DNA of 54,947 nucleotides, taken from positions 1-54,947 of the IMG/VR virus record IMGVR_UViG_3300000553_000051; one strand, given 5' to 3'. The translations under genes were made by a program, and so were the position numbers. The notes beneath the pieces are model-generated. The model saw only the letters and a program-made list of their open reading frames with translations, ran no database searches and was not told the origin of the DNA. This stretch comes from a virus. Of the stretch, positions 15,416-48,660 are shown piece by piece; the first letter of the stretch is position 1; each line of letters opens with the position of its first letter.

Positions 15416-15529
15416 ATGAGAAACTATTGTTACATACTTGAAATGTTAATTTCAAATCTGAACTTTGTTCAGATATGTGATTATCGCAACATTAATATTA
15501 ATGATGAGGATACTATGCGAACTGGGTGA
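15416..15529 (+). CDS. leader peptide 2 (37 residues)
   Basis: ATG at 15416 opens 37 codons ending TMRTG, with TGA at 15527-15529 at the end of segment 1 of the second attenuator. It is also rich in Asn, Ile, Asp and Tyr/Cys codons, several of which are read by tRNAs coded downstream. Confidence 0.45.
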   Translation: MRNYCYILEMLISNLNFVQICDYRNININDEDTMRTG

Positions 15530-15583
15530 GTTATAAAAAACTTGATTTTTTACCAACCCAGTTCTGAAAAGACTGGGTTTTTT
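15520..15583 (+). promoter_or_regulatory. attenuator-like module 2
   Basis: AACTGGGT (15520), ACCCAGTT (15556) and ACTGGGTT plus T6 (15572). Segment 2 pairs with either flank over 8 bp, so an antiterminator and a terminator exclude each other. Downstream lie about fifteen tRNA genes with no other clear promoter before 16.29 kb, so this element may set their transcription. Confidence 0.65.
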
Positions 15584-15632
15584 GTTTATAATAGAATTTA
15601 GGTTCTTTGACATCTTGGAAATTAAAATAAAT

Positions 15633-15651
15633 GGTGGGTTGACTACCCACC
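15633..15651 (+). other. stem-loop before tRNA
   Basis: GGTGGGT-TGACT-ACCCACC, a perfect 7-bp stem 5 bases before the tRNA-Glu 5' end. There is no T-run, so an RNA-processing role is more likely than termination. Confidence 0.5.
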
Positions 15652-15656
15652 AAAAT

Positions 15657-15742
15657 GCTCGATTCGGCTAGCGGTCCAGGCTCCCAGAATTTCAATCTGG
15701 CGTGGAGTAATCCACTCAGGGGTTCGAATCCCCTATCGAGTA
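15657..15742 (+). tRNA. tRNA-Glu(TTC) with an expanded variable arm
   Basis: Acceptor GCTCGAT/ATCGAGT (G1:U72), Glu-like D-arm (TTCGGCTAGCGGTCCAGG), perfect anticodon stem CCAGA/TCTGG with loop ATTTCAA, T-arm AGGGG-TTCGAAT-CCCCT. The variable region is 17 bases and forms GTGGA-GTAA-TCCAC, a class-II-like arm capped by a GNRA loop. Glu tRNAs are normally class I with a 4-5 base variable loop. Confidence 0.75.
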
Positions 15743-15821
15743 CGAAAATAAAGAAAACTTGCAGCAACTTAAAAAAATGAACTGTCAATTCAATAAAATG
15801 TTTTCTGTTTTCATTAAAATT

Positions 15822-15888
15822 GCCAACGAGCAGGTGCAAGCCAGGTCTGTAAAACCTTTGCTAGGGGGTTCGAAACCCTCCGGTGGCA
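15822..15888 (+). tRNA. shortened tRNA, anticodon GTA (Tyr) by loop position
   Basis: Acceptor GCCAACG/CGGTGGC with one A.G mismatch, loop CTGTAAA in stem AGGT/ACCT, T-arm GGGGG-TTCGAAA-CCCTC. Only 67 bases, because the D-arm is reduced to a 2-bp stem. With U33 fixed the anticodon is GTA. A Thr(TGT) reading needs C33 and is less likely. It may be non-functional. Confidence 0.5.
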
Positions 15889-15897
15889 CAATAAATA

Positions 15898-15944
15898 CCA
15901 TCTGGTGGTGTAATGGATGCATATCACTCTGTCACAGTGAAGGT
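15898..15944 (+). tRNA. 5' portion of a tRNA-Asp (GTC), truncated
   Basis: A D-arm-like segment and a perfect anticodon arm TCACT-CTGTCAC-AGTGA (anticodon GTC) are present, but no T-arm or 3' acceptor follows. The sequence runs straight into the next tRNA. It looks like a deletion fusion of two tRNA genes. Confidence 0.4.
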
Positions 15945-16020
15945 TTCGCATAGTGGCAATTGCGGGGGTCTGTAAAACCTCTCTCTTTCGAGTCCAGTAG
16001 TTCGAGTCTACCTACTTCCA
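15938..16020 (+). tRNA. tRNA-Tyr(GTA), class II
   Basis: D-stem CGC/GCG, anticodon arm GGGGT-CTGTAAA-ACCTC (GTA), a long variable arm with CTC-TTTC-GAG as expected for Tyr, T-arm GTAG-TTCGAGT-CTAC, 3' acceptor TACTTCC. The 5' acceptor (TGAAGGT) pairs at only 4 of 7 positions because it is shared with the truncated tRNA before it. Function doubtful. Confidence 0.5.
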
Positions 16021-16030
16021 CAAAAAATTT

Positions 16031-16103
16031 GGGTTATTGGTGTAGTGATTAACATAACTGACTGTCGCTCAGTGGATCACGGGTTTGAGTCCCGTATAAC
16101 CCG
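16031..16103 (+). tRNA. tRNA-Asp(GTC)
   Basis: 73 bases. Acceptor GGGTTAT/ATAACCC perfect, anticodon arm ACTGA-CTGTCGC-TCAGT, T-arm ACGGG-TTTGAGT-CCCGT, discriminator G as usual for Asp. An intact canonical gene. Confidence 0.9.
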
Positions 16104-16119
16104 CCTGTGTTTGTTTTTT

Positions 16120-16153
16120 ATGATTTTGTTTCAGCCGAAAAAATCAAAATCAT
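16120..16153 (+). other. spacer stem-loop between tRNAs
   Basis: ATGATTTTG ... CAAAATCAT, a perfect 9-bp inverted repeat with a 16-base loop between the tRNA-Asp and tRNA-Cys genes. It could guide processing of the precursor. Confidence 0.4.
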
Positions 16154-16158
16154 TACAT

Positions 16159-16244
16159 GACAGAATGCTAGAGTGGTCTATTGGCGCAGCCTGCAAAGCT
16201 GATCGGGGAGCAATCCTGCGTGAGTTCGAATCTCACTTCTGTCT
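16159..16244 (+). tRNA. tRNA-Cys(GCA) with an expanded variable arm
   Basis: Acceptor GACAGAA/TTCTGTC perfect, anticodon loop CTGCAAA, T-arm GTGAG-TTCGAAT-CTCAC. The variable region forms GGGA-GCAA-TCCT with a GNRA loop. Cys tRNAs normally have a short variable loop. Confidence 0.75.
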
Positions 16245-16289
16245 CTTTTGGAAAACTTTGTAAAACCAGAAAAAATAGAGTTCGATATT

Positions 16290-16301
16290 TTTATATATAG
16301 A
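16290..16301 (+). promoter_or_regulatory. TTTATATATAG late-type promoter candidate
   Basis: The motif lies 14-25 bases before the HNH endonuclease ATG. This gives the endonuclease its own transcription within the tRNA cluster. Confidence 0.4.
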
Positions 16302-16314
16302 ATAAAAATGTTTT

Positions 16315-16971
16315 ATGAAAAAGTTAAAAACTAAAATTTTAGAATTGAGAGATAAACATAAGTCCTATAATGAAATCGCAAAAATATTAAATTGTGCTAA
16401 AAGCACAATATCATATCATTGTAAGAATTTAAATATCAAATTAAAGGAAAGTGAAATTAAAAAGTCTGAAATAATTGATTTTTATAATAAAAATAAAAAT
16501 TTTAGAGAAACGGCTAGATATTTCAATCTTACAAGATATAAATTGGGTAAAATATTAGGAATACCATTTAATCCTAAAAAATCAAATTGTGTAATTTGTG
16601 GTAATGAAATAATATCATCTATAAGTACTAAAAAATGTTGTTCAGATAAATGTAGAAGAAAATTTAGATTAAATTATTTTAAATTAAATAATTATCAATA
16701 TGATAAATTAGTAATATGGAGAAAAAATAAAAAATTAAAGGCAATTGAATATAAAGGTGGAAGTTGTCAAATTTGTGGATATAATAAATGTGAAAATTCA
16801 TTATCTTTTCATCATATTGAACCTGATAAAAAAGATTTTAGTATAAGTTCAAATATAAATTGGTCATTTGAAAAAATAAAAAATGAATTAGATAAATGTG
16901 TTTTGGTGTGTATGAATTGTCATGGTGAAATTCATAGTGGATTACATTCAGAATTTTTAAAATTAAAATAA
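16315..16971 (+). CDS. free-standing HNH homing endonuclease
   Basis: 218 residues. N-terminal helix-turn-helix-like segment (SYNEIAKILNCAKSTISYHC), a first zinc pair CVICGNE...CCSDKCRR, then an HNH core: CQICGYNKC, LSFHHIEPDKKDF, CVLVCMNCHGEIH. HNH homing endonucleases cut intronless or unmodified alleles and spread by repair. Its place between tRNA genes is typical of such insertions; the group I intron at 20.1 kb is a possible partner but is 3 kb away. Confidence 0.88.
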   Translation: MKKLKTKILELRDKHKSYNEIAKILNCAKSTISYHCKNLNIKLKESEIKKSEIIDFYNKNKNFRETARYFNLTRYKLGKILGIPFNPKKSNCVICGNEIISSISTKKCCSDKCRRKFRLNYFKLNNYQYDKLVIWRKNKKLKAIEYKGGSCQICGYNKCENSLSFHHIEPDKKDFSISSNINWSFEKIKNELDKCVLVCMNCHGEIHSGLHSEFLKLK

Positions 16972-16973
16972 AT

Positions 16974-17059
16974 GCCGTCATGAGTAGAGTTGGTTATTAC
17001 GGAGGTCTCATAAACCTTTCAACCATAGTGTTGCGGTGGTTCAAATCCACCTGACGGTA
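16974..17059 (+). tRNA. tRNA-Met(CAT) with an expanded variable arm
   Basis: Acceptor GCCGTCA/TGACGGT (G1:U72), anticodon arm (G)AGGT-CTCATAA-ACCT(T), variable stem CAAC-CATAGT-GTTG, T-arm GGTGG-TTCAAAT-CCACC. Second CAT tRNA of the cluster; one may be read as Ile2. Starts 2 bases after the endonuclease stop. Confidence 0.75.
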
Positions 17060-17071
17060 CAAATTAAAAAT

Positions 17072-17144
17072 GGGCTCTTAGTATAACTGGTTAGTATGGA
17101 TGACTGATACTCATTCGATCCTGAATCATCCTCAGGAGAGCCTA
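17072..17144 (+). tRNA. tRNA-Ile(GAT) with odd T-loop
   Basis: Acceptor GGGCTCT/AGAGCCT (G1:U72), anticodon arm GATGA-CTGATAC-TCATT. The T-stem CCTGA/TCAGG is perfect, but the loop is ATCATCC and lacks the TTC motif. Loss of the conserved T-loop makes folding uncertain. Confidence 0.65.
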
Positions 17145-17150
17145 CAGAAA

Positions 17151-17224
17151 CCTGATGTGGCGCAATTGGTCAGCGCAGGACCCTTATAAGGTCAAGGTTG
17201 TTGGTTCAAGTCCAGCCATCAGGA
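17151..17224 (+). tRNA. tRNA-Ile(TAT)
   Basis: Acceptor CCTGATG/CATCAGG perfect, D-arm GCGC-AATTGGTCA-GCGC, anticodon arm GGACC-CTTATAA-GGTC, T-arm GTTGG-TTCAAGT-CCAGC. Reads ATA, a codon that is abundant in this AT-rich phage and often rare in hosts. Intact. Confidence 0.9.
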
Positions 17225-17255
17225 CTAAGGAGAAACGGACTCCAACCAAAAAATA

Positions 17256-17366
17256 GTCGTGACTGATGGAGAGACATCAAAATTTCGTGCTGTACCGAGA
17301 CACACTGATAATGTGGATATTCGTTGGTGAGTGGAAGATAAAGGTTCAAATCCTTTCTGCACGACA
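17256..17366 (+). tRNA. tRNA-like gene, atypical fold
   Basis: T-arm AAAGG-TTCAAAT-CCTTT and 3' acceptor GCACGAC are clear. The 5' acceptor may be GTCGTGA at 17256 (6 of 7 pairs, D-like arm TGATG/CATCA, 111 bases in all) or TCGTGC at 17285 (no D-arm, 82 bases). A hairpin CACA-CTGATAA-TGTG would give anticodon GAT. The two folds cannot be resolved by eye. Confidence 0.4.
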
Positions 17367-17371
17367 AAAAT

Positions 17372-17458
17372 GTTTGGTTAATCAAGTGGTCGAAGATATT
17401 ACGCTGTTAACGTAACGAGACGCAAGTCCCATCGTGGGTTCGAATCCTACACCAAACG
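17372..17458 (+). tRNA. tRNA-Asn(GTT) with an expanded variable arm
   Basis: Acceptor GTTTGGT/ACCAAAC and anticodon stem TTACG-CTGTTAA-CGTAA are perfect, D-stem ATC/GAT, T-arm GTGGG-TTCGAAT-CCTAC. The variable arm GAC-GCAA-GTC (GNRA loop) and the D-loop AAGTGGTCGAA are class-II-like, unusual for Asn. Confidence 0.75.
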
Positions 17459-17465
17459 CAAAATT

Positions 17466-17524
17466 GGTCAGTTGCCGTAGTGGCCAAACGGTCCGTGCCA
17501 CCCTGAAATTTCGGCTGTTAACCC
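17466..17524 (+). tRNA. tRNA 5' fragment
   Basis: GGTCAGT acceptor-like, D-stem CCG/CGG, then an arm with CTGTTAA (GTT). No T-arm or matching 3' acceptor follows. Probably a remnant. Confidence 0.3.
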
Positions 17525-17583
17525 AAATAAAAAATAAAGGATATTCAGATATAGTAAATAATATACAATAAAGACACCAAAAA

Positions 17584-17721
17584 GGGAAAGTAGCTCAGTT
17601 GGTAGAGCAGCGTTAAAAAAGATGTAATCTGTTGATACAAAAAATATCTTAAAGATTATTAACCGCACTTACAAAAAGCATGTAAAGCCGTGTGTCAGTC
17701 GTTCGAATCGATTCTTTCCCC
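17584..17721 (+). tRNA. tRNA interrupted in the anticodon region
   Basis: Canonical acceptor GGGAAAG/CTTTCCC, D-arm GCTC-AGTTGGTA-GAGC and T-arm AGTCG-TTCGAAT-CGATT, but 138 bases long. About 62 extra bases sit in the anticodon arm and can be closed by GCGTTAA...TTAACCGC. The original anticodon cannot be assigned. It could be an insertion, a degenerate intron, or a pseudogene. Confidence 0.5.
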
Positions 17722-17759
17722 ACAGAGATTAAAGAAAACTTCCAGCCAAAATAAAATCA

Positions 17760-17828
17760 GGCTCTGTAGTTTAGTCGGTAAAACCTATTCGCAAGTGTAG
17801 ATCCTTGGTTCGAGTCCAAGCGGAATCA
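17760..17828 (+). tRNA. tRNA, anticodon unclear
   Basis: GGCTCTG/CGGAATC (6 of 7 with wobbles), perfect D-stem GTTT/AAAC, T-arm CTTGG-TTCGAGT-CCAAG. The anticodon arm CTAT...GTAG has a loop of 8 (TCGCAAGT), so no anticodon is assigned. 69 bases, about 4 short. Flanked by AAGAAAAC/GTTTTCT inverted repeats. Confidence 0.45.
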
Positions 17829-17855
17829 AAAAAATGTTTTCTGTTCTCTTTAATA

Positions 17856-17936
17856 CCAGCACCCGCAGGCGCAAACCCGTAGAAGGATACTATATATATT
17901 GTATATGAAAGAAGGTTCAATTCCTTCGATGCTGGC
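17856..17936 (+). tRNA. tRNA-like, anticodon unclear
   Basis: CCAGCAC/ATGCTGG (one mismatch) and T-arm GAAGG-TTCAATT-CCTTC. The interior contains an AT-rich hairpin (ATAC...GTAT) that does not give a normal 7-base loop. Preceded by an ATGTTTTCTGTT spacer also found at 15.8 kb. Confidence 0.4.
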
Positions 17937-17954
17937 TTTTTTATTTGGAAAAAA

Positions 17955-17967
17955 TTTAATATATTTA
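17955..17967 (+). promoter_or_regulatory. TTTAATATATTTA late-type promoter candidate
   Basis: The motif lies 4-17 bases before the ATG at 17972. Confidence 0.35.
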
Positions 17968-17971
17968 TAAA

Positions 17972-18187
17972 ATGAGTATAGTAGAAAATAGGTTAAGAGT
18001 AGAAGCAGAAATTCTAAAGAAGATCAAAAGGGAAATTCTTAAGAGTGCTAAGAAAGGTGATGTGCATTATTATTGGGAAACAACTGGTTTAAGTGATTCT
18101 ATGGTAAGAAGCATTGTTACTCAATTGGAAGAAGATAAAAAAATGGTAAAAAGCAAAGGACCTAATTATAAGATAATTAGGTGGTAA
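17972..18187 (+). CDS. small winged-helix-like DNA-binding protein
   Basis: 71 residues: helix (RLRVEAEILKKIKREIL), then YYWETTGLSDSMVRSIVTQLEEDKKMV and KGPNYKIIRW, the order helix-turn-helix plus wing. Such small wHTH proteins are usually transcriptional regulators. It lies inside the tRNA cluster. Assignment rests on pattern only. Confidence 0.6.
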   Translation: MSIVENRLRVEAEILKKIKREILKSAKKGDVHYYWETTGLSDSMVRSIVTQLEEDKKMVKSKGPNYKIIRW

Positions 18188-18430
18188 TTATTTCTTTTTT
18201 AGAATTTTTATAATAATATCTTCTTTAATAATGATTAATGAATCTTTTTTAAGAATAAGTTTACTGATGCTATCATCTTGTTTTATTGCGACAGTATTTA
18301 TTTTTGCTGATTCTTGATTTTGTTTTATTATACGGCTATTTGATCCGAAATAATCAATTACATAGATACTAATTGTAAATAAGCAGAAAAATAATATAAA
18401 ATAAATTGTTTGTTCATAAACTTTTTTTAT
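18188..18430 (-). CDS. possible membrane protein without ATG start
   Basis: An open frame of about 80 codons with one transmembrane segment (YFILFFCLFTISIYVI) followed by a charged tail ending in IIIKILKKK. The only upstream start-like codons are ATA/ATT. An ATG two codons into another frame stops early, so a single indel may hide the real start. It is directly convergent with the wHTH gene. Confidence 0.35.
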   Translation of the reverse strand: MKKVYEQTIYFILFFCLFTISIYVIDYFGSNSRIIKQNQESAKINTVAIKQDDSISKLILKKDSLIIIKEDIIIKILKKK

Positions 18431-18452
18431 TCTATATATAAAAAAATAATAC

Positions 18453-18546
18453 TTGGTGTTGGAGAAATGGCGTATTCCGAAAAAGAATACTTAACTCGTC
18501 CCGGAGACTTGCGGGAAGATAGGTGGTTCGATTCCATCACACCATA
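18453..18546 (+). tRNA. class-II-like tRNA, anticodon unclear
   Basis: Acceptor TTGGTGT/ACACCAT (first pair mismatched) and T-arm GGTGG-TTCGATT-CCATC. It contains GTATTC-CGAAAAA-GAATAC (perfect stem, no U33) and a long arm CCCG...CGGG. The loop could be read CGA/GAA but U33 is missing. It may be a Ser, Leu or Phe gene with an inserted hairpin. Confidence 0.45.
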
Positions 18547-18742
18547 CTGAAAGAAGAGTTACATATAACAATAACCAAGGTTTTAAATATCGTTTATTAG
18601 TGCCTTATAAAGTTCATTATACTTTAAAATGATGTTTCGGTTCGTTTCGAAGGTAAATATACCCCAGAATTGACCTTACACTATAAAAAAACGATTTTGT
18701 GCTTAGATTCAAGAAAACAAAAACTACAAAATAATAAATAAC
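18547..18742 (+). other. intergenic stretch, no gene seen
   Basis: About 195 bases with no ORF over 30 codons and no tRNA. GGTTCGTTTCGAAGG-type short palindromes only. Probably the leader of the small genes that follow. Confidence 0.4.
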
Positions 18743-18916
18743 ATGGATGAACATTTAAGAATGAATTTTGAGAATTATGATGAATATTGTCGTAATATGC
18801 ATGAATGTGAATTTTACATAGAATGGTTGAATATTGATGAATTTATTGAAAGATTAGAAACAGATGAAAAGTTCAGAAAAGAATGGTCGATAATGAATGA
18901 AAAATCACAAATATAG
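18743..18916 (+). CDS. small acidic protein, 57 residues
   Basis: ATG 18743 to TAG 18914-18916. Charged and helical (NFENYDEYCRNMHECEFYIE ... RLETDEKFRKEW). Short, but the codon use is like its neighbours and it overlaps the next small gene in the usual way. Function unknown. Confidence 0.55.
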   Translation: MDEHLRMNFENYDEYCRNMHECEFYIEWLNIDEFIERLETDEKFRKEWSIMNEKSQI

Positions 18917-19028
18917 AATAGGTGAATTTGTTATGATTAAATCTCTTAAGTGGTATAAGAGTAATCATGATAGTTTTGGTAACATTTTGTGCTATGAATA
19001 TTACGGCATCTCTCTAAAAATCGAGTGA
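18897..19028 (+). CDS. small protein, 43 residues
   Basis: ATG 18897 to TGA 19026-19028, overlapping the previous gene by 20 bases. The sequence YRIGEFVMIKS...GNILCYEYYG has the pattern of a small beta-barrel. Ends just before a promoter box. Function unknown. Confidence 0.5.
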   Translation: MKNHKYRIGEFVMIKSLKWYKSNHDSFGNILCYEYYGISLKIE

Positions 19029-19034
19029 CTTTAT

Positions 19035-19042
19035 TATCTTTG
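19035..19042 (+). promoter_or_regulatory. Bacteroidota-type promoter (TATCTTTG)
   Basis: TAnnTTTG box 8 bases before the ATG at 19051, so the message would be nearly leaderless. Confidence 0.55.
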
Positions 19043-19050
19043 TTCCTGCA

Positions 19051-19346
19051 ATGAGTGTTTATTGTGGCCTGAAAGCGGAAATTATAGATTACACAAGAAG
19101 AGGATATCACATTAATATTATAGATAAAAATAAACCAAAGAATGGTTTTATCGGGTGGGAATGGAGTGATGAAATGTTTGAAAGTATTAGTAGTATAAGA
19201 AAAAACCTGCGTTATTACCTGGCCAGCATCTTCGACGGCTTGCCCACGTTGAATATGAATACCTTACACATTGGATTCATAGCCGAGGTATTGTTTATTG
19301 GTATTATCCCAAGAAATTAAAAAAACTGAAAAAGAAATCAGAATAA
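19051..19346 (+). pseudogene. frameshifted small gene with KKLKKL tail
   Basis: The frame from ATG 19051 reads through about 60 sensible residues (VYCGLKAEIIDYTRRGYHIN...), then switches in quality near 19232. The +1 frame from there continues RRLAHVEYEYLTHWIHSRG... and ends YPKKLKKLKKKSE at TAA 19344-19346, giving the shared basic tail. One single-base change restores a protein of about 98 residues. The uninterrupted frame would instead stop at 19320. Confidence 0.6.
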
Positions 19347-19354
19347 AAAAAATT

Positions 19355-19828
19355 ATGAAATTTGGATTATATACATTGCAAATAGAGTCAACATTAACAA
19401 AAATTCCAATTTATCAACGTATTTTTGATTTTGGTTGGGGAAATGGTTATGTTTTATTGCCACACAATCATCCTTTTTATGGAAAGCATTATGATGATAT
19501 AGGTGTTGTTGCACATGGTGGATTAACTTTTAGTGATTATTTGATGCTAAATCATTTTTTAGAATGGATAGGTGATAGAGAATTTGATGGTGATGTGACT
19601 TTAGAAAACTATAAAAAATTTGACAAATGGTGGATGATAGGTTTTGATACTGCGCATGCTGGTGATGATTCATATGTTTGTTCTAAGGAATTTGTTATAA
19701 ATGAGACTCATGAAATGATTGAGCAATGTTTATCAGATGATATTAAAGGAATGAATTTATATAAAGCAATTTATTTAAGGAAAGATAAATTGAAATTAAT
19801 TAATGCCTCTATGAGTTGTAATGAATAG
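19355..19828 (+). CDS. unknown protein with RKDKLKLIN tail
   Basis: 157 residues from ATG 19355 (MKFGLYTLQ), preferred to an upstream in-frame start that lies in the previous gene. It has a Gly/His-rich segment (LLPHNHPFYGKHYDDIGVVAHGG) and WMIGFDTAHAGDD, seen in phage proteins of unknown role. The YLRKDKLKLINAS tail is followed by six residues that are coded inside the tRNA-Arg gene. Confidence 0.75.
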   Translation: MKFGLYTLQIESTLTKIPIYQRIFDFGWGNGYVLLPHNHPFYGKHYDDIGVVAHGGLTFSDYLMLNHFLEWIGDREFDGDVTLENYKKFDKWWMIGFDTAHAGDDSYVCSKEFVINETHEMIEQCLSDDIKGMNLYKAIYLRKDKLKLINASMSCNE

Positions 19829-19878
19829 CATTTAGCGCTTCGAACGCTAAGGTGGGGGTTTGATTCCCTCTAGGGGTA
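19805..19878 (+). tRNA. tRNA-Arg(TCG) overlapping a CDS
   Basis: Acceptor GCCTCTA/TAGGGGT (G1:U72 and one G.U), perfect anticodon arm TTAGCG-CTTCGAA-CGCTAA, T-arm GGGGG-TTTGATT-CCCTC. The first 24 bases are also the last codons and stop of the preceding CDS, on the same strand. Confidence 0.7.
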
Positions 19879-19888
19879 CAATTGCGAG

Positions 19889-19913
19889 GAAGGTTCGAAT
19901 CCTTCTAGGCATA
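19889..19913 (+). tRNA. orphan tRNA 3' end
   Basis: T-arm GAAGG-TTCGAAT-CCTTC plus TAGGCATA right after the tRNA-Arg. No anticodon arm of its own. A leftover of a lost tRNA. Confidence 0.4.
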
Positions 19914-20046
19914 TAAAAAATTTAATTTCCAAGATGAATGGCATCTTTGCTGAAATGAATTATAGCAACTTTGGTAGAAAGTATAAGGTGAGTGGCAAGA
20001 CAATAAAAAATGGCTAAATTATTTTTTTATATTAAAAACTTTTTTG

Positions 20047-20054
20047 TATATTTG
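20047..20054 (+). promoter_or_regulatory. Bacteroidota-type promoter (TATATTTG)
   Basis: TAnnTTTG box 20 bases before the intron-bearing tRNA-Leu. Confidence 0.6.
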
Positions 20055-20073
20055 TATTATAAAATTTAAGTAT

Positions 20074-20368
20074 GCCGATGTGTTGTAATTGGTAGCCAAG
20101 ATGGACTTGTGTAAATGATTGAAAATGAGTGCTTTAAGGGAAACTTTAAATGTAGAATGCTTCAAATTCGGTGAATTCTTTAAAATGATAACGCCGAGCC
20201 AAGCTTCAGAAATGAAGAAGGTGTAGAGACTTGACGGAGCATACCTAAGTCAAAATTGATATGGTAAAGGCAAAGCCCAGACTACAAACAGAAATGGTAG
20301 TGAAAACTATAGTAGTAAGAAAATCCATTGGGAGCAATCCCGTGCCGGTTCGAGTCCGGCCATCGGCA
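20074..20368 (+). tRNA. tRNA-Leu(TAA) interrupted by a group I intron
   Basis: 5' exon 20074-20108: acceptor GCCGATG, D-arm with GTAATTGGTAGCC, then ATGGACTT. 3' exon 20320-20368: AAAATCCAT, variable arm GGGA-GCAA-TCCC, T-arm GCCGG-TTCGAGT-CCGGC, acceptor CATCGGC. Joining gives stem ATGGA/TCCAT with loop CTTAAAA, anticodon TAA, a class II Leu tRNA. The break lies after U34, the same site as in the tRNA-Leu(UAA) introns of cyanobacteria and plastids. Reads TTA, a major codon in an AT-rich genome. Confidence 0.85.
20109..20319 (+). ncRNA. group I intron in tRNA-Leu(UAA)
   Basis: 211 bases, with no ORF inside. It follows T34 and ends in G, as group I introns do. GAGT at 20128-20131 can pair with the exon end ACTT (U.G at the splice site) as P1. 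Core elements in order: a Q-like segment AACGCCGAGCCAAGC, an R-like segment GTGTAGAGACTTGACGG and an S-like segment AGCCCAGACTACAAA, close to those of trnL introns (subgroup IC3 in known cases). Small and probably self-splicing. Confidence 0.82.
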
Positions 20369-20434
20369 CAAATGAATAAAATTAATATTAAACTATGAAA
20401 ATAGATTTCCAATATACTTGGAAATAAAAATATT

Positions 20435-20596
20435 ATGAAAGAACTTACCGCAGAAGAAATGATTGTTCAGATGAATGCTCAACTTAGAGAAGTTGAAGAG
20501 CATATTGATAATGAAGAAAATGAAACTATTACTAGGTTAGATTCTGAAATTAAGGAGTTGACTGCGATAGAAAAAAAAGATGATTTAGGATTTTAA
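20435..20596 (+). CDS. small coiled-coil protein, 53 residues
   Basis: ATG 20435 to TAA 20594-20596. One long charged helix (MIVQMNAQLREVEEHIDNEE...). One base separates it from the next ATG. Function unknown. Confidence 0.6.
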   Translation: MKELTAEEMIVQMNAQLREVEEHIDNEENETITRLDSEIKELTAIEKKDDLGF

Positions 20597-20597
20597 T

Positions 20598-20867
20598 ATG
20601 GATAACATAACAGAAGAAGATTACAAAAAAGCACTTAATACAGTTGCTTTATACGAGTATCATTTAAGAGATACAAAACAAGTTTCGGTAACTTATAAGG
20701 CTGAGGTTTCTGTAACTGTTCAAGTTCCAAATAATTGGACAAATGAAAAAATATTGAAAGAATTAGAAGGTGGTGCATATCACGGATTAGAGCAGGATAG
20801 TGAGGAAGGGATTAATTTTGGTGAAATTGTTGAATTGATTGTTGCTGGTAAAGAGATAATATTATAA
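20598..20867 (+). CDS. unknown small protein
   Basis: 89 residues with a beta pair in the middle (QVSVTYKAEVSVTVQVP) and an acidic end. No family name. It follows the preceding coiled-coil gene by one base. Confidence 0.7.
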   Translation: MDNITEEDYKKALNTVALYEYHLRDTKQVSVTYKAEVSVTVQVPNNWTNEKILKELEGGAYHGLEQDSEEGINFGEIVELIVAGKEIIL

Positions 20868-20904
20868 TGTTGGAGAAATATTTATATTGTTCACAAATAT
20901 ACGA

Positions 20905-20923
20905 TGTTCACGTATCGTGAACA
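20905..20923. promoter_or_regulatory. palindromic operator-like site
   Basis: TGTTCACG-TAT-CGTGAACA, a perfect 8-bp inverted repeat, with another TTCAC half-site at 20890. No T-run follows, so it is more likely an operator or RNA stem before the gene at 20951 than a terminator. Confidence 0.45.
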
Positions 20924-20950
20924 CAAAAAAAATAAAAATAATAATAAATT

Positions 20951-21922
20951 ATGGAAACTCGTCATATTAATAATCTTCAAAAAATTGAAGATTTTTTAAC
21001 ACAATACTCAATTCCTTTTACTAAGACAGATAATATATTTTATCTTAATAATAACACTTTTGAAATTCGCTATGTTGATAGTGAAAATCATAAAATGGAT
21101 TATGAAAAACGGTTTGGTATAAAGGGTATTCCCCACAATTATTTCATTAACATTACTAAGGATAACAAAGCGAAAGGAATTCGAACAATGTGGATTAAGG
21201 ATTGGGAATGTGAAGAAACTAATGATTTTAAAACTGCTGAAGGTATTGAAATTACTAATTATCCGCGTAAATGGAATGTACTTCAGTCTTATATCAAAAC
21301 TGCTACAGGTAAGATTGAAAATAGATTTTATGCTAGAGAGTGTGAGATAAGAGAAATTACTAATCAGGAACTTAAACCTTTTCTGTTAGAAAATTGTTTT
21401 TATGGCTACAGAAGTTCTAATACTAATTTAGGCTTATTTAATAAAAAAGAAAAAAATGGTATTAACGCCGGTACACTGTTGATGATCTATACCTTCGGAC
21501 ACCCATTTTTTGGCAAAGGTTTATACGATGTAGAAATTATCAGAGTAGCCACTAAACTTAACTGCCAAGTGATTGGCGGTTCAAGTAAATTACTTAACAA
21601 TTTTATACTTAACTATCCAACACTTACTATTGCAGGTAAAGTCATAAATGTTAATAAAATCGTTTTTTTGGTGGATGCCGATCATAACGATGGTAAGTCT
21701 CTTGATACCTTAGGTTTTACTTTTGTTAGTCATAAAGATAATGGCTTCATGAATGTAGATGTAGCTACTGGTAAAGTAACTCACAGAGACCCTATGCATC
21801 ACAAAATGATTATGGAGAAAATGGCTAAGGGTGAAATGTATAGTGTTGCTAATTCTGGCACTATTATCTATACCATAGATAAAAACGAATACCTTAAAAA
21901 AATAAAGATAGAAAAAACTTAG
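20951..21922 (+). CDS. Hef-like homing endonuclease/Mom-type domain protein
   Basis: 323 residues. The N-terminal third has a Vsr-like pattern ending in GIRTMWIKDWE. Then RFYARECEIREI leads into ENCFYGYRSSNTNLGLF, TLLMIYTFGHPFFGKG, VIGGSSKLLNNFI and DADHNDGKSLDTLGF, the order seen in the C-terminal half of phage Hef-type homing endonucleases and in stand-alone Mom-like (GNAT-fold) proteins. The role could be homing or DNA modification. The N-terminal catalytic residues are not certain. It carries no intron itself and follows the intron-bearing tRNA gene by 0.6 kb. Confidence 0.65.
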   Translation: METRHINNLQKIEDFLTQYSIPFTKTDNIFYLNNNTFEIRYVDSENHKMDYEKRFGIKGIPHNYFINITKDNKAKGIRTMWIKDWECEETNDFKTAEGIEITNYPRKWNVLQSYIKTATGKIENRFYARECEIREITNQELKPFLLENCFYGYRSSNTNLGLFNKKEKNGINAGTLLMIYTFGHPFFGKGLYDVEIIRVATKLNCQVIGGSSKLLNNFILNYPTLTIAGKVINVNKIVFLVDADHNDGKSLDTLGFTFVSHKDNGFMNVDVATGKVTHRDPMHHKMIMEKMAKGEMYSVANSGTIIYTIDKNEYLKKIKIEKT

Positions 21923-21945
21923 TAAAAAATAATACTATATATAAT

Positions 21946-22001
21946 ATGAAAAATTTATCAAATATGGTTCAACAACAACAGATGTAAATCTGATTGGGTG
22001 A
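21946..22001 (+). CDS. possible leader peptide 3 (frame uncertain)
   Basis: From ATG 21946 the frame stops after 13 codons. The neighbouring frame reads KFIKYGSTTTDVNLIG and stops at TGA 21999-22001, inside segment 1 of attenuator 3, exactly like leader peptides 1 and 2. One missing A in the run after the ATG would join start and end. Confidence 0.3.
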
Positions 22002-22047
22002 ACTATATCTTTTTTAACCCAATCCTGCAACGGTTTGGGTTTTTTTC
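21992..22047 (+). promoter_or_regulatory. attenuator-like module 3
   Basis: GATTGGGT (21992), ACCCAATC (22017) and TTGGGTT plus T6 (22035): segment 2 pairs with segment 1 (8 bp) or with segment 3 (7 bp terminator). Same layout as modules 1 and 2. Downstream are one small gene and three tRNA-Gln genes. Confidence 0.6.
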
Positions 22048-22063
22048 TTTAAAAATTAGAATT

Positions 22064-22273
22064 ATGAATAAGGGTAGAAGAAATGAATTGACAAGGTTGA
22101 AGTTTAAAAAAAGACTTGAACAATTAGGACTAAAACAAGAAGATGGAAATTTGTTTTGTTATAAAACAAGTGGTAAACCTTGTAGTTGTGAAATGTGTTC
22201 TCCATATAAATATAAGAGAACAGAGAAGCACAAAGGAAATTTTGAAGAGAATTTTGAAGAGAATGAAGAATAA
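22064..22273 (+). CDS. HicA-like small basic protein
   Basis: 69 residues from ATG 22064, after the terminator. RRNELTRLKFKKRLEQLGL, then CYKTSGKPCSCEMCSPYKY: this RRKxxxRRxxxLxLxxxxxYCYxTSGKPCSCxMCS arrangement is common in small phage and host proteins of unknown role, with a probable Cys4 zinc site. The HicA comparison is weak. It lies in the attenuated unit with the tRNA-Gln genes. Confidence 0.55.
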   Translation: MNKGRRNELTRLKFKKRLEQLGLKQEDGNLFCYKTSGKPCSCEMCSPYKYKRTEKHKGNFEENFEENEE

Positions 22274-22280
22274 AGAATAT

Positions 22281-22355
22281 TGCTACATAGCGCAATTGGT
22301 TTAGAGCGTCAGATTTTGAATCTGAAGGTTGAAGGTTCAAGTCCTTCTGTGGCAA
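22281..22355 (+). tRNA. tRNA-Gln(TTG)
   Basis: Acceptor TGCTACA/TGTGGCA (one U.G), D-arm GCGC...GAGC, anticodon arm TCAGA-TTTTGAA-TCTGA, T-arm GAAGG-TTCAAGT-CCTTC. Intact. Confidence 0.9.
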
Positions 22356-22364
22356 CAAATAAAA

Positions 22365-22435
22365 TGCTCTATAGCATAATGTAGTGTGTCACCCTTTGAA
22401 GGTGGTCGGTATAGGTTCAAGTCCTGTTAGAGCAA
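22365..22435 (+). tRNA. second tRNA-Gln(TTG)
   Basis: Acceptor TGCTCTA/TAGAGCA perfect, anticodon arm TCACC-CTTTGAA-GGTGG, T-arm ATAGG-TTCAAGT-CCTGT. The D-arm is less regular than in its neighbours. Confidence 0.75.
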
Positions 22436-22440
22436 CAAAT

Positions 22441-22514
22441 TGTTCAGTAGCATAATTGGTTTGTGCAACTGCCTCTGAAGCAGAAGGTTGAAGGTTCGAC
22501 CCCTTCCTGAACAG
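22441..22514 (+). tRNA. tRNA-Gln(CTG)
   Basis: Acceptor TGTTCAG/CTGAACA perfect, anticodon arm CTGC-CTCTGAA-GCAG, T-arm GAAGG-TTCGACC-CCTTC, discriminator G. Third Gln tRNA in a row. Confidence 0.85.
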
Positions 22515-22569
22515 CAAAAATAAACTTTTTTTTAAAAAAAGAAATACAAATTAAAAAACAATTAAAATA

Positions 22570-23286
22570 ATGACTAATCTTTTAATACCATCGTTATGGC
22601 ACATTGCTGGATCAACTCCATGTGAAGATATTGAGCATGCTGGAAATTCTCCTCAGGGTGGAGTTTGTAATTTTCAAACAGAAGAAGTAAGTTTAACTGA
22701 GAATTTTTTTACTTTTGGTAATTCTAAAAAAACTAATACTGCTTGGTATAGAGGTGAAGGTGATTGGATTTGGCGGCAGAGAACAAGAGAATATCAAGGT
22801 GGATCTATTACTTCTATAAATAAATATGGTTTTGGAAAATATACTTTAGTGGCTAAAGTTCCTCAGTTTAGAGGATCTTGGCCTGCATGGTGGTTTATTG
22901 ATTGGACTGATAAATCTCAAGGTGGAATGGGTATGCCACCTGAAATTGATGCATTAGAACAAATGATAAAAAAATGTTGGGATAGATACAAAATAAGTCC
23001 AGGTTTTATTTATGGTAATTCCTATGCTAATAGTACTGATTTTATTAAATCTGTATGGAGATGGAAAAGGTGGGATAAAGATTTTCACACCTTTGTATTA
23101 ATTTGGAAGACAGATAGTTTAGAAGTTATTTATGACAATAAATCAATTTGGACAATTACGAATCATTCAATTATTCCACAAGGAACTATGAATATGATTT
23201 TAAATTCGGGGTTTGGTAATTGGAATCCAGATGAAAAAAATTTCAATTCACTTGAAATAAAGAGTCTTTCTTTTGAAGAGATTTAA
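22570..23286 (+). CDS. GH16 family glycoside hydrolase
   Basis: 238 residues, the size of a single GH16 jelly-roll domain. GKYTLVAKVPQFRGSWPAWW is the usual approach to the active site, and PPEIDALEQM at 123-132 gives the catalytic ExDxxE (Glu125, Asp127, Glu130). GH16 enzymes cut beta-1,3/1,4-glucans, agar, carrageenan and similar polysaccharides. No signal peptide, so it could be a virion depolymerase for host capsule or released at lysis. It follows the last tRNA by 55 bases. Confidence 0.85.
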   Translation: MTNLLIPSLWHIAGSTPCEDIEHAGNSPQGGVCNFQTEEVSLTENFFTFGNSKKTNTAWYRGEGDWIWRQRTREYQGGSITSINKYGFGKYTLVAKVPQFRGSWPAWWFIDWTDKSQGGMGMPPEIDALEQMIKKCWDRYKISPGFIYGNSYANSTDFIKSVWRWKRWDKDFHTFVLIWKTDSLEVIYDNKSIWTITNHSIIPQGTMNMILNSGFGNWNPDEKNFNSLEIKSLSFEEI

Positions 23287-32946: not shown

Positions 32947-34062
32947 TTAATCGTAGTTCACAATATATATATGAAATTTGAAAAATTCAAACCATCCCCA
33001 AGGCGGTAAAACATTATAGAATTCCTTATCTGATTCGTTTACTATTTTTATATCAACTTCAATCATAAGTTGTTTTTTTGGAAATCCTTGTTTAATTCTA
33101 TCCATAAATCTATTTAAATCATCTATACTGGTTATCTTTACAATCAAATAATCAACATTTTCTGTTTCAGAAAAATAAAGATTTTGATCAAAATAAAGTT
33201 CTCTTAAAATTCTTTTGTCTTCATAAGTAGATGTAGGTGAAAAATATTCAATAGAACATTTATTTTTTTCTATATTTAATCTGGAGAGATAAAATGGTGT
33301 AGTTTGATAATAAATATTGTCATAATATTTATTTATAGAATTAAGATTTGTTCTATCTATTCTTGAATCTGAATCTTTTTTCATATTGTCAAATTCGCCT
33401 GCTAGATCAGCACCATATGTTTCTAAATGAGAAATTGATTTTTCTCTAAAAGCATATGTGTGTAGTGTTCTAGGAAGGTATAAAATTTTACCTTTTTCTT
33501 CATTCACTAACATTTTAATATAATCTTCGCCACAAAATTGCCATTTGCAATTAGGTTCGAAAGTTGAAATATTATTTCTCCATGCTCTACAGTCACCCCA
33601 GTTATACTCAAAGTTTTGATCCAACATGGCTTCGTATAAATGCCTATTTTCTTTATAATGAATATGACGATAAGATCGTAATTGGCCTTTTATAGAATCA
33701 TTTTTTATAATTGAATTTGTTGATATTAATTGAACTTCTGGAAATTTATTAAAATTATAATTATAAACTTCAAGAAGTTTAGGATGCATTACATCATCAG
33801 AATCCATTACCATCATTATATCACCCGAAGCATATTCAAAAGGTGGTGAAAAATAAAATTCTTTTTTTGTTGTTGTTTGAATTTTTTTAATTTTAGAATT
33901 TTTTCCTAATTCAATTAATTTTTTTTCAACATCAGGATTTTCACTGAAATCATTAACAACAATCCACTCCCAATCAGTATAGGTTTGTGATAACACACTT
34001 TCAACCAATTCATCAAACGTGTCCATATAGTTATAAAATGCAGTAAAAATAGTAAATTTCAT
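32947..34062 (-). CDS. family 2 glycosyltransferase
   Basis: 371 residues. FTIFTAFYNYMDTFDELVES, SVLSQTYTDWEWIVVNDFSE and DIMMVMDSDDVMHPKLLEVY give the GT-A nucleotide-binding fold with the DxD-type motif (DSDD, about residues 88-91). Later CGEDYIKM is the usual acceptor-side ED motif. It transfers a sugar from a nucleotide-sugar, target unknown: phage DNA bases, virion proteins or host surface glycans are all possible. The C-terminal 130 residues are unassigned. Confidence 0.85.
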   Translation of the reverse strand: MKFTIFTAFYNYMDTFDELVESVLSQTYTDWEWIVVNDFSENPDVEKKLIELGKNSKIKKIQTTTKKEFYFSPPFEYASGDIMMVMDSDDVMHPKLLEVYNYNFNKFPEVQLISTNSIIKNDSIKGQLRSYRHIHYKENRHLYEAMLDQNFEYNWGDCRAWRNNISTFEPNCKWQFCGEDYIKMLVNEEKGKILYLPRTLHTYAFREKSISHLETYGADLAGEFDNMKKDSDSRIDRTNLNSINKYYDNIYYQTTPFYLSRLNIEKNKCSIEYFSPTSTYEDKRILRELYFDQNLYFSETENVDYLIVKITSIDDLNRFMDRIKQGFPKKQLMIEVDIKIVNESDKEFYNVLPPWGWFEFFKFHIYIVNYD

Positions 34063-34232: not shown

Positions 34233-35291
34233 ATGAAAATAGAACCAGACGCTTGTGGTTTCGACTGGGAAGATTGGCATAAACAACTTGCTAATTCAGT
34301 CACAACAATAGAAGAATTGAAAAAAATAAATTTAGAAGAAGATCAAATAATAGATCTACCGAACCTACCGATTAAAATCACACCGTATTATTTAAAATTA
34401 ATAAAAGACAACCCAATATTAAAAAGAACTGTTATTCCATCAGAAAAAGAATTTATAATATCTGATTATGAGAATAGTGATCCCTTATCCGAAGAGCAAT
34501 ATAAGAAAACGGCTTGTATAATTCATAAATATCCGAATAGAGTATTGTTTACCGTAACTAAACAGTGTGCCAGTTATTGTAGGTATTGTACAAGATCTCG
34601 TATGGTTGGAAATGATAAAAATTTTAATAAAAAAGATTGGGAAGATGCTTTTGAATATATAAAGAATAATGATATAAAAGATGTTTTACTTAGTGGTGGT
34701 GATGGTTTAATGCTCACTAATTCACAATTAGAATTTTTATTAAATAAAATAACAGAAATTCCAAATGTAGATATAGTTAGAATTGGCACTAAGATGCCAA
34801 TTGTTTTGCCATTTAGAGTTGATTCAGGTTTAATTGAAATCTTAAAAAGATATAATGAAATAAAATCAATATACATTAATCTTCATGTGACACATCCAGC
34901 TGAAATAACAAAAGAATTTATAGAAGCTTGTAAAAAATTATCAATAGATGGTGGATGTATTCTTGGTTCACAAACAGTTATTCTTAAAGGAATTAATGAT
35001 GATTCAAATATACTAAAAGAATTGTTTCACAAATTGCTAAAGAACAGAGTTCGTCCATATTACGCATATCAAATGGATAAGATATCTGGTGGCTCTCATT
35101 TTAGAGTGGACATAGAAAAATTTATTAATCTTCAAAAGGAATTGATATCCTACAATTCTGGACTGGAAGTACCTGATTTTATTTTAGATTCTGAAATCGG
35201 TAAGATTCCTTTAAGGATAGATTTTGTTGTAAGAGATAATGGAAAATATATTTTGAATAGTTTTGAAAAGAATAAATCAATTGAATATTAA
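34233..35291 (+). CDS. lysine 2,3-aminomutase-like radical SAM protein (KamA/EpmB family)
   Basis: 352 residues. VTKQCASYCRYCTRSRMVG holds the CxxxCxxC cluster (Cys112, 116, 119) that binds the 4Fe-4S centre and SAM. VLLSGGDGLML is the family GGE-like SAM motif. YYAYQMDKISGGSHFRVDI and VPDFILDSEIGKIPL match the C-terminal segments that surround PLP in KamA, with the Lys of GGGGK kept as the K of IGKIPL. The length fits EpmB, which beta-lysylates EF-P with EpmA, more than long KamA. Strong Shine-Dalgarno AGGAGG at 34211. A long AT-rich leader precedes it. Confidence 0.85.
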   Translation: MKIEPDACGFDWEDWHKQLANSVTTIEELKKINLEEDQIIDLPNLPIKITPYYLKLIKDNPILKRTVIPSEKEFIISDYENSDPLSEEQYKKTACIIHKYPNRVLFTVTKQCASYCRYCTRSRMVGNDKNFNKKDWEDAFEYIKNNDIKDVLLSGGDGLMLTNSQLEFLLNKITEIPNVDIVRIGTKMPIVLPFRVDSGLIEILKRYNEIKSIYINLHVTHPAEITKEFIEACKKLSIDGGCILGSQTVILKGINDDSNILKELFHKLLKNRVRPYYAYQMDKISGGSHFRVDIEKFINLQKELISYNSGLEVPDFILDSEIGKIPLRIDFVVRDNGKYILNSFEKNKSIEY

Positions 35292-47401: not shown

Positions 47402-47572
47402 ATGAGACGAAAAACAAAAACAGAATTATCTATATCATTAGATGATAGCATCATTAAAATTTTGAATGAAGAATTTGAAAATCGTTCAAAATTTATTGAA
47501 TATTGTATTATAAAAGAATTAGAAAACAATGATGTATTTAGAAAAAGAATTGAAAAATCAATTATATTTTAA
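47402..47572 (+). CDS. ribbon-helix-helix (CopG-like) protein
   Basis: 56 residues from ATG 47402, chosen because the promoter lies in the longer frame. TELSISLDDSIIKILNEEF and NRSKFIEYCIIKELENN give strand-helix-helix. The last base of its stop is the first base of the endonuclease ATG, so it is likely a regulator co-expressed with that gene. Confidence 0.75.
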   Translation: MRRKTKTELSISLDDSIIKILNEEFENRSKFIEYCIIKELENNDVFRKRIEKSIIF

Positions 47573-48660
47573 TGAAAAGACAATCAACAGAATATTTTAT
47601 TGAAAAAGCAATACAAAAACACGGGAATAAATATGATTACTCACTATTCGATTATAAAAATAACAGAACAAAAGTAAAAATAATATGTCCTACTCATGGT
47701 ATGTTTGAACAGGATCCAAGTTCTCATTTGAACGGTAATAATTGTAAATTGTGTTATTTAATTTCAAAAAATTCAACTACAGAAGAATTTATAAAAAAAG
47801 CAAAAAAAATACATGAGGATAGATATGACTATTCATTAGTTGATTATATAAACGCAAAAACGAAAATTAAAATAATTTGTTCTGAACACGGTATTTTTGA
47901 ACAAGAGCCTAGACTGCATTTATCCGGTCAAAATTGTCCAAGATGTAATATTATAACAAGTGAAAAATTTATTAAAAATGCAAAAATTGTTCGAGGTAAT
48001 AGATATGATTATTCACTAGTCGAGTATAAAAATAATAGCACAAAAATTAAAATAGTTTGTAATATACATGGTATTTTTGAACAAACACCAGCAAACCACA
48101 TAACTTGTAAACATGATTGTCCAAAATGTTCATGTTTATTATCAAATACAAAAGATTTTATAACAAAATCAAATATTATTCACGAAAATAAATATGATTA
48201 TTCTTTAGTTGATTATAAAAATAATAGGACAAAAGTTAAAATAACATGCTTAAAACATGGTGTTTTCGAGCAACTTCCAAGTTCTCATTTAAATAAGCAA
48301 GGATGTCCCATATGTAATGAATCTAAAGGTGAAAATATGATAAAAAAATATTTTAAAGATAATAATATTAAATATAATAGTCAAAAAACTTTTGATGGTT
48401 GTAATTATAAATATCCATTACGGTTTGATTTTTACTTAATAGAACATAATATATGTGTTGAATATGATGGCATGCAACACTTTAAACCTATTGATTATTT
48501 TGGTGGTATAGACACATTTAATTATATTTTATTAAAAGATAAAATAAAAAATGAGTATTGTAAAAAAAATAATATAAAATTGATAAGAATAAAATATGAT
48601 GATAATATTATAGAAAAACTTATAAATCAATTAGTTTTTTCGTATATAGAAAAACCATAA
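47572..48660 (+). CDS. EDxHD-type homing endonuclease with four zinc-finger repeats
   Basis: 362 residues. Four repeats of about 60 residues, each with YDYSLVDYKNN-TK(V/I)KI, C..HG-FEQ.P..HL and a closing CPxC, a treble-clef zinc unit. The C-terminal 115 residues have RFDFYLIEHNICVEYDGMQH, then DxxKNxYC and LIRIKYDD: the PD-(D/E)XK/EDxHD nuclease of the I-Bth0305I class. The repeats should read DNA. A free-standing homing endonuclease is most likely, with a restriction or defence role possible. Confidence 0.8.
   Translation: MKRQSTEYFIEKAIQKHGNKYDYSLFDYKNNRTKVKIICPTHGMFEQDPSSHLNGNNCKLCYLISKNSTTEEFIKKAKKIHEDRYDYSLVDYINAKTKIKIICSEHGIFEQEPRLHLSGQNCPRCNIITSEKFIKNAKIVRGNRYDYSLVEYKNNSTKIKIVCNIHGIFEQTPANHITCKHDCPKCSCLLSNTKDFITKSNIIHENKYDYSLVDYKNNRTKVKITCLKHGVFEQLPSSHLNKQGCPICNESKGENMIKKYFKDNNIKYNSQKTFDGCNYKYPLRFDFYLIEHNICVEYDGMQHFKPIDYFGGIDTFNYILLKDKIKNEYCKKNNIKLIRIKYDDNIIEKLINQLVFSYIEKP

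Follow-up and report, generated by a model that had tools for sequence, protein, structure and literature searches.

An intron-split tRNA-Leu(UAA) gene in a probable huge phage, and its relationship to other same-site introns of phages and bacteria

The group I intron in the tRNA-Leu(UAA) gene (trnL) of cyanobacteria and plastids is usually taken as ancient and vertically inherited. What does it mean when an intron is found at the same site in a phage? We have studied such a case in a viral DNA of 54,947 nucleotides, IMG/VR record IMGVR_UViG_3300000553_000051, positions 1 to 54,947, here called the window. A first-pass annotation had proposed a group I intron of cyanobacterial or plastid kind in this tRNA gene. 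Very probably, it is a small intron of the bacterial tRNA type (IC3-like), located in a huge-phage gene for tRNA-Leu(UAA) and belonging to a mobile phage population. As a ribozyme it is ordinary; its location, although unexpected, is evidently a common one.

The gene is organized as follows:

20074-20368, plus strand: tRNA-Leu(UAA) gene split by an intron (ARAGORN on the spliced sequence and ARAGORN intron mode)
20074-20108, plus strand: 5' exon, from the acceptor to U34 (the spliced product is tRNA-Leu(taa))
20109-20319, plus strand: group I intron of 211 nt, IC3-like, with no open reading frame, omega G = G20319 (RF00028, covariation)
20320-20368, plus strand: 3' exon, from A35 to the discriminator A (ARAGORN)

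The insertion point lies between U34 and A35 of the anticodon, as had been claimed, and the terminal base of the intron is G. When positions 20109-20319 are removed, ARAGORN identifies the joined exons as a class II tRNA-Leu(taa) with all stems paired, in agreement with the good leucine tRNA anticipated by the annotation. The CCA end is not encoded in the 3' exon. The proposed boundaries are also exact: The intron mode of ARAGORN recovers the gene independently, with the identical 211 nt intron. On the other hand, neither the default mode of ARAGORN nor the Rfam tRNA model calls a gene at 20074-20368.

ARAGORN finds a tRNA array in the window. A tRNA-like 3' half (GGTTCGAATCC...) at 19880-19914, directly after a tRNA-Arg(tcg), is perhaps a relic. 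The intron mode also calls a tRNA-Val(tac) with a 53 nt intron at 17584-17721, which is below group I size and probably spurious.

That the insertion is a group I intron was confirmed by a covariance model search. The Rfam model RF00028 matches 20111-20300 with 40.1 bits (E 5.4e-9, 381 nt searched), a significant match that is nevertheless below the gathering score of 50 bits, so that a default Rfam scan misses the intron. A RF00028 profile search of the window's own record had no hit at E 0.001. No extra group I intron was found at 15500-22700 with Rfam at E 0.5, a search in which the match of the known intron is likewise unlisted. Helices P1, P2, P3, P4, P6, P6a, P7, P8, P9.0 and P9 may be drawn in the window sequence. 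The main elements are:

20127-20130, plus strand: internal guide GAGU, forming P1 with ACUU of the exon (20105-20108), with U.G at the splice site
20133-20150, plus strand: P2 hairpin with a GAAA tetraloop (two-sided changes in 7 of 7 pairs, 32 relatives)
20157-20242, plus strand: P3 (20157-20163 with 20236-20242), which encloses P4, P5, P6 and P6a (two-sided changes in 7 of 7 pairs)
20228-20277, plus strand: P7 (20228-20232 with 20273-20277), the guanosine-binding helix (98.8% of cells paired, 32 relatives)
20243-20265, plus strand: P8 with CCUAAG...UAUGG (base 100% paired, two-sided changes in 2 of 3 pairs)
20281-20316, plus strand: P9.0 (20281-20285 with 20312-20316) and the P9 hairpin 20298-20309 with a GAAA loop (100% of cells paired)

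We have compared this hand-written structure with 32 distinct phage relatives, taken from a set of 38 phage trnL introns; the divergent short introns L046, L076, L081, L093, L094 and L104 were omitted (L numbers designate loci of our survey). Standard pairs are found in 93.5% of 1575 cells, while controls with slid partners pair 28-40% of cells, at most 40.1%. The structure was derived from one of the aligned sequences, which biases this comparison against the slid versions; the two-sided changes, found in 31 of 50 pairs, are free of that bias. Every pair in P2, P3, P6a and P9 (4 of 4 pairs in the latter) varies with compensation, and P5 is weak, with 51.6% of cells paired. Covariation in these 32 relatives supports a P1-P9 structure with the P3/P7 pseudoknot. 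The folding energy is ordinary (minimum free energy, z = -1.75), so the case for an intron rests on covariation and homology. P5 has only a few bases in the window and the P5abc extension is absent, as it is in IC3 introns (PMC11835236). The P8 element CCUAAG...UAUGG is 11-nt-receptor-like, and together with the GAAA loops of P2 and P9 it resembles the Azoarcus intron.

Does this intron still splice? One might think of a pseudo-tRNA in decay, with an intron that has lost this ability. The P3-P9 core has a single P7 mismatch, A20229-C20276, where nearly all relatives have A-U. The mismatch lies beside the guanosine site and is rare in relatives, so splicing could be slow or lost. The P1 loop region is also longer than in most relatives, P10 as read from the sequence is limited to one pair, and the Rfam score is below the cutoff. 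Against decay, the joined exons pair in every tRNA stem, the drawn helices are kept except for one pair, and the same mismatch is found in two other phage introns. A C at this position is present in 3 of 87 phage introns (the window, L104 and L127) and in no bacterial intron with a readable motif; the motif is unreadable in 39 bacterial introns and one phage intron. We consider decay improbable.

A functional intron would also be of consequence for the phage. In 18 window ORFs, chosen mostly by length, TTA accounts for 248 of 446 leucine codons, and no other tRNA-Leu is found within the 54,947 nt linear fragment. UUA being the main leucine codon of the phage, splicing would be needed if tRNA-Leu(UAA) is to serve. 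In the cell, the anticodon stem of the folded precursor tRNA would keep the two exons together, and the guide GAGU would pair with ACUU in the 5' exon. Splicing would begin with the attack of an external guanosine after U34; the freed U34 would in turn attack after G20319 to yield mature tRNA-Leu(UAA).

The phage itself was thought to infect Bacteroidota, which is plausible. Its single-stranded DNA-binding protein (SSB) is nearest to those of 636-, 634-, 642- and 735-kb phages (41-48% identity), and according to the available text of PMC7162821 the largest genomes of that study belong to the Mahaphage clade, with predicted Bacteroidetes hosts. Other genes recognized in the window are a glycosyl hydrolase of family 16 (22570-23286), a glycosyltransferase of family 2 (32947-34062) and a radical SAM protein (34233-35291). 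The 804 amino acid protein at 49539-51950 has no match in our phage collection.

Is this an isolated case? A blastn search of 50,697 phage records gave 24 records with a match. The nearest copy is found in the 735-kb phage LR756501: The introns are 87.7% identical and the tRNA exons 63.1%, with 42.9% and 48.2% for the SSB and radical SAM proteins. Introns in the same gene and site, with a spliced tRNA-Leu(taa), are present in LR756501, in LR756511 (595 kb) and in Agrobacterium phage Atu_ph07, a cultured phage whose trnL intron has 278 nt. The Atu_ph07 record shows no tRNA at this locus, and the word "intron" is absent from the text of its paper.

A scan of IMG/VR viral contigs with a pattern for the 3' junction gave many more. 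Among the 120 stretches listed, 83 splice to tRNA-Leu(taa), which makes at least 83 viral loci; with trimmed exons, 82 of the 83 are still called tRNA-Leu(taa), and at control GAAAATCC sites none of 71 are. These 83 introns form 59 clusters at 93% identity; 53 have at most 262 nt, eight have 263-500 nt and 22 are longer. Since the junction pattern contains trnL exon bases, the scan was repeated with a pattern confined to the intron core. This exon-independent scan places 59 of 120 listed stretches in trnL(UAA) and 85 in some tRNA. Eighteen of the 120 were already known, and the 102 new loci comprise 41 Leu(taa), 25-26 other tRNAs (25 sense or suppressor calls by ARAGORN and one Pyl label), 32 with no tRNA call and three at contig ends. 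All 23 previously known loci with the core pattern are Leu(taa). Both scans have at least 120 stretches and the contigs may be near copies, so these counts are samples rather than prevalences.

Intron-free trnL(UAA) genes were looked for as well. A rigid pattern found them in none of 10 records and a looser one in 2 of 13: LR745206 (634 kb) has two such sites and Vibrio phage D479 has one, called tRNA-Leu(taa) by ARAGORN. R1, a covariance model built from the 32 phage trnL introns and used here with stricter filters, gave no intron match in huge phages of 634, 636, 642 and 462 kb. R1 detects no further intron in the window, whose own intron, a training row of the model, scores 212.3 bits.

Divergent viral trnL introns ending in CATAGAGTAGTAAG (L018, L034, L044, L104 and others) are found at the same site with lower scores and are perhaps another subgroup; a blastn search of the phage collection with the L104 intron gave no match. 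In intron mode, ARAGORN calls suppressor-type tRNAs (CUA, UUA) around the same core in two viral contigs, at L317 330 and in L283. Lak phages were considered as a further same-site case and discarded: Their 3' junctions match, but no spliceable 5' exon was found. In Lak-B1 (MK250020, 412062-412318; L255 1501-1757) a group I-like intron with a weak R1 score of 42.7 bits splits a tRNA whose best spliced form (intron of 245 nt) has a CUA anticodon, an amber suppressor. If this is right, the tRNA behind the TAG recoding of Lak depends on splicing.

The site had been described as a cyanobacterial and plastid speciality, which no longer holds. A core scan of bacteria, with one genome per species, listed 118 stretches with at least 119 sites: 58 in Leu(taa), 15 in Arg(cct), 12 in tRNAs with a CAU anticodon, nine with no call and the rest in other tRNAs. 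The bacterial trnL introns included in our tree come from several phyla: Pseudomonadota, Cyanobacteriota (10), Bacteroidota (5), Acidobacteriota (3), Bacillota (1) and Vulcanimicrobiota (1). Many of these are MAG contigs, and the Bacilli MAG contig may be phage; the intron positions given by ARAGORN are off by a few bases in some bacteria (for example, L141 and L227).

R1 was applied to the 83 viral loci and to 100 of the 118 bacterial ones. All 100 score 41-194 bits, mostly above 87, and they had been picked by a phage-suited core pattern. Pseudomonadota introns in other tRNAs share the core: Of the loci scored, those in Arg(cct) reach about 87-139 bits, and several in CAU tRNAs, which are of the Azoarcus type, reach 92-111. 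All these introns differ from that of the window in tRNA and site, and in lying on a bacterial chromosome. The T4 td intron, split by its own ORF and scored lower for that reason, is matched as two fragments with no more than 20.9 and 15.9 bits.

Could the intron have come recently from a cyanobacterium or a plastid? It resembles the cyanobacterial and plastid IC3 intron in gene, position (U34|A35), small core and P1 on the anticodon-stem exon, and R1 detects all 10 cyanobacterial introns of the tree set at 97-136 bits; many introns from Pseudomonadota and Acidobacteriota score higher than these. The tree was built from 199 columns of an R1 alignment of 99 matches, with 98 loci included and most exon columns omitted; L002 and the Lak loci are outside it, the bootstrap is unsettled, with 37 of the 96 internal branches left open. 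The window and LR756501 are sisters (100/96) within a group of 27 rows (95/97): 24 phage trnL introns, two Pelagibacter-type phage capsid introns and the Bacilli MAG. The 10 cyanobacterial introns form their own clade (100/100), with the window outside. The best tree groups the window with phages, and with 199 columns a cyanobacterial sisterhood is still allowed by the AU test (p 0.244 for the window with cyanobacteria, p 0.146 when LR756501 is added). The expected cyanobacterial affinity has been borne out for the site and a related core, and not for descent within the cyanobacterial clade. The link is at the family level only, and a recent transfer is very improbable.

The phage might instead have taken up a whole trnL gene, intron included, from a Bacteroidota host. 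Bacteroidota genomes do carry trnL introns (L140, L147, L222, L227 and L248), and the kin of this phage are predicted to infect Bacteroidetes in the accessible portion of PMC7162821. The five Bacteroidota introns are, nevertheless, a separate clade (98/98), and the nearest introns to the window are all from phages, so that we give this origin very little credence.

A third idea is that unrelated group I introns have repeatedly hit the same trnL site, in which case the shared site would say nothing about kinship. Some viral trnL introns are indeed divergent, several with R1 scores of 25-60 bits and the other 3' sequence (CATAGAGTAGTAAG), and a single clade of all trnL(UAA) introns is rejected by the AU test (p 0.02); for all phage trnL introns as one clade, p is 0.096. 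For the window, the sequence itself shows a clear relationship to the phage trnL group (87.7% identity to LR756501), and we find this explanation unlikely. Membership in a mobile phage population is the reading that we prefer.

If the population is mobile, what moves it? Across 38 phages, intron and exon identity are uncorrelated (Spearman 0.011, with 872 of 2000 permutations as high), which fits movement; the test has little power, since the exon halves barely agree with each other (5' against 3' exon 0.136, compared to 0.61 for the intron halves). The 3' half of the intron against the 3' exon gives 0.155 (11 of 2000 permutations). As had been stated, the window copy has no internal endonuclease: No ORF of that size fits in 211 nt. 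Its relatives do have one. Among the loci listed, 22 viral trnL introns exceed 500 nt and 13 of them contain an ORF with an HNH motif, as does the LR756511 intron. These ORFs, the one in LR756511 included, are for the most part alike; both of those tested belong to phrog_10822. They are located 5' of the guide region in L011 and L060 and in the P6 region in L002, L181 and L232; given these different positions, the HNH ORF was apparently acquired on more than one occasion.

The annotation had suggested that HNH genes near the intron could mobilize it, an idea that comparison with the intron-borne enzymes does not support. The window HNH at 16315-16971 is weakly similar (29% over 55 amino acids, E 8e-4), and the ORFs at 20951-21922 and 47572-48660 give nothing better than E 0.05. 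No HNH of the intron-borne type is present among the window ORFs compared, the window being a fragment. The HNH enzymes of related introns are more likely mobilizers than the window's own neighbours. The population would live mainly in phage tRNA genes, above all trnL(UAA), and move between them. The homing activity probably comes, or came, from relatives whose peripheral loop holds an HNH endonuclease, and the copy in the window would be a form that lacks this enzyme. We have looked for close relatives with and without the intron using neighbouring proteins: That at 22570-23283 gave none, and that at 19298-19825 led to one distant locus only (L266), which was not used.

Capsid-gene introns of marine podophages, located between two gene pieces (L003 1455-1657, L005 950-1123), are placed inside the phage trnL group. 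Their position in the tree suggests that the intron may have jumped between tRNA and protein genes.

The known phage introns of T4 td and nrdB, crAss dnaB and the Pelagibacter phage capsid are also group I, with protein-coding host genes; the capsid introns fall in the same phage trnL group as the window. All phage introns to date were in protein genes according to the accessible text of a 2014 paper (PMC3984707), and many group I introns, with protein genes named, are reported in the available parts of work on crAss-like and Jug phages (PMC7886860, PMC12363816). A 2014 review (PMC4033280), in the portion available, gives cyanobacteria, alpha- and beta-proteobacteria and plastids as carriers of group I introns in tRNA genes. 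Another close system is that of the Lak phages, placed in the same huge-phage clade in the accessible literature: Their introns in tRNA-Tyr and tRNA-Thr are called enigmatic, and the first in phages to the authors' knowledge, in 2019 (PMC6784885), and are not classed as group I in the available text of that paper. In the open-licence literature, as far as it was accessible, no group I intron of a phage trnL turned up; subscription journals are thinly covered, so novelty is provisional.

In summary, about seven in ten of the core-pattern phage introns listed are in tRNA genes and half are in trnL(UAA), and tRNA counts for phages made with default tools omit such split genes. The first suggestion that copies in phages may throw light on the mobility of this intron has gained strength. 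How an intron with no endonuclease comes to share one site across distant bacteria and plastids is an old question that may now be tested in phages, with at least one cultured phage (Atu_ph07) and the HNH enzymes inside phage copies as test systems. A wider scenario is possible, but we regard it as doubtful: Phages, especially huge ones with tRNA arrays, would harbour trnL(UAA) introns as a large population in active homing, and would have seeded bacterial trnL genes repeatedly, possibly including those of cyanobacteria and plastids. In any case, same-site insertion in many phages and in non-cyanobacterial bacteria makes phages a possible carrier of the classic trnL intron.
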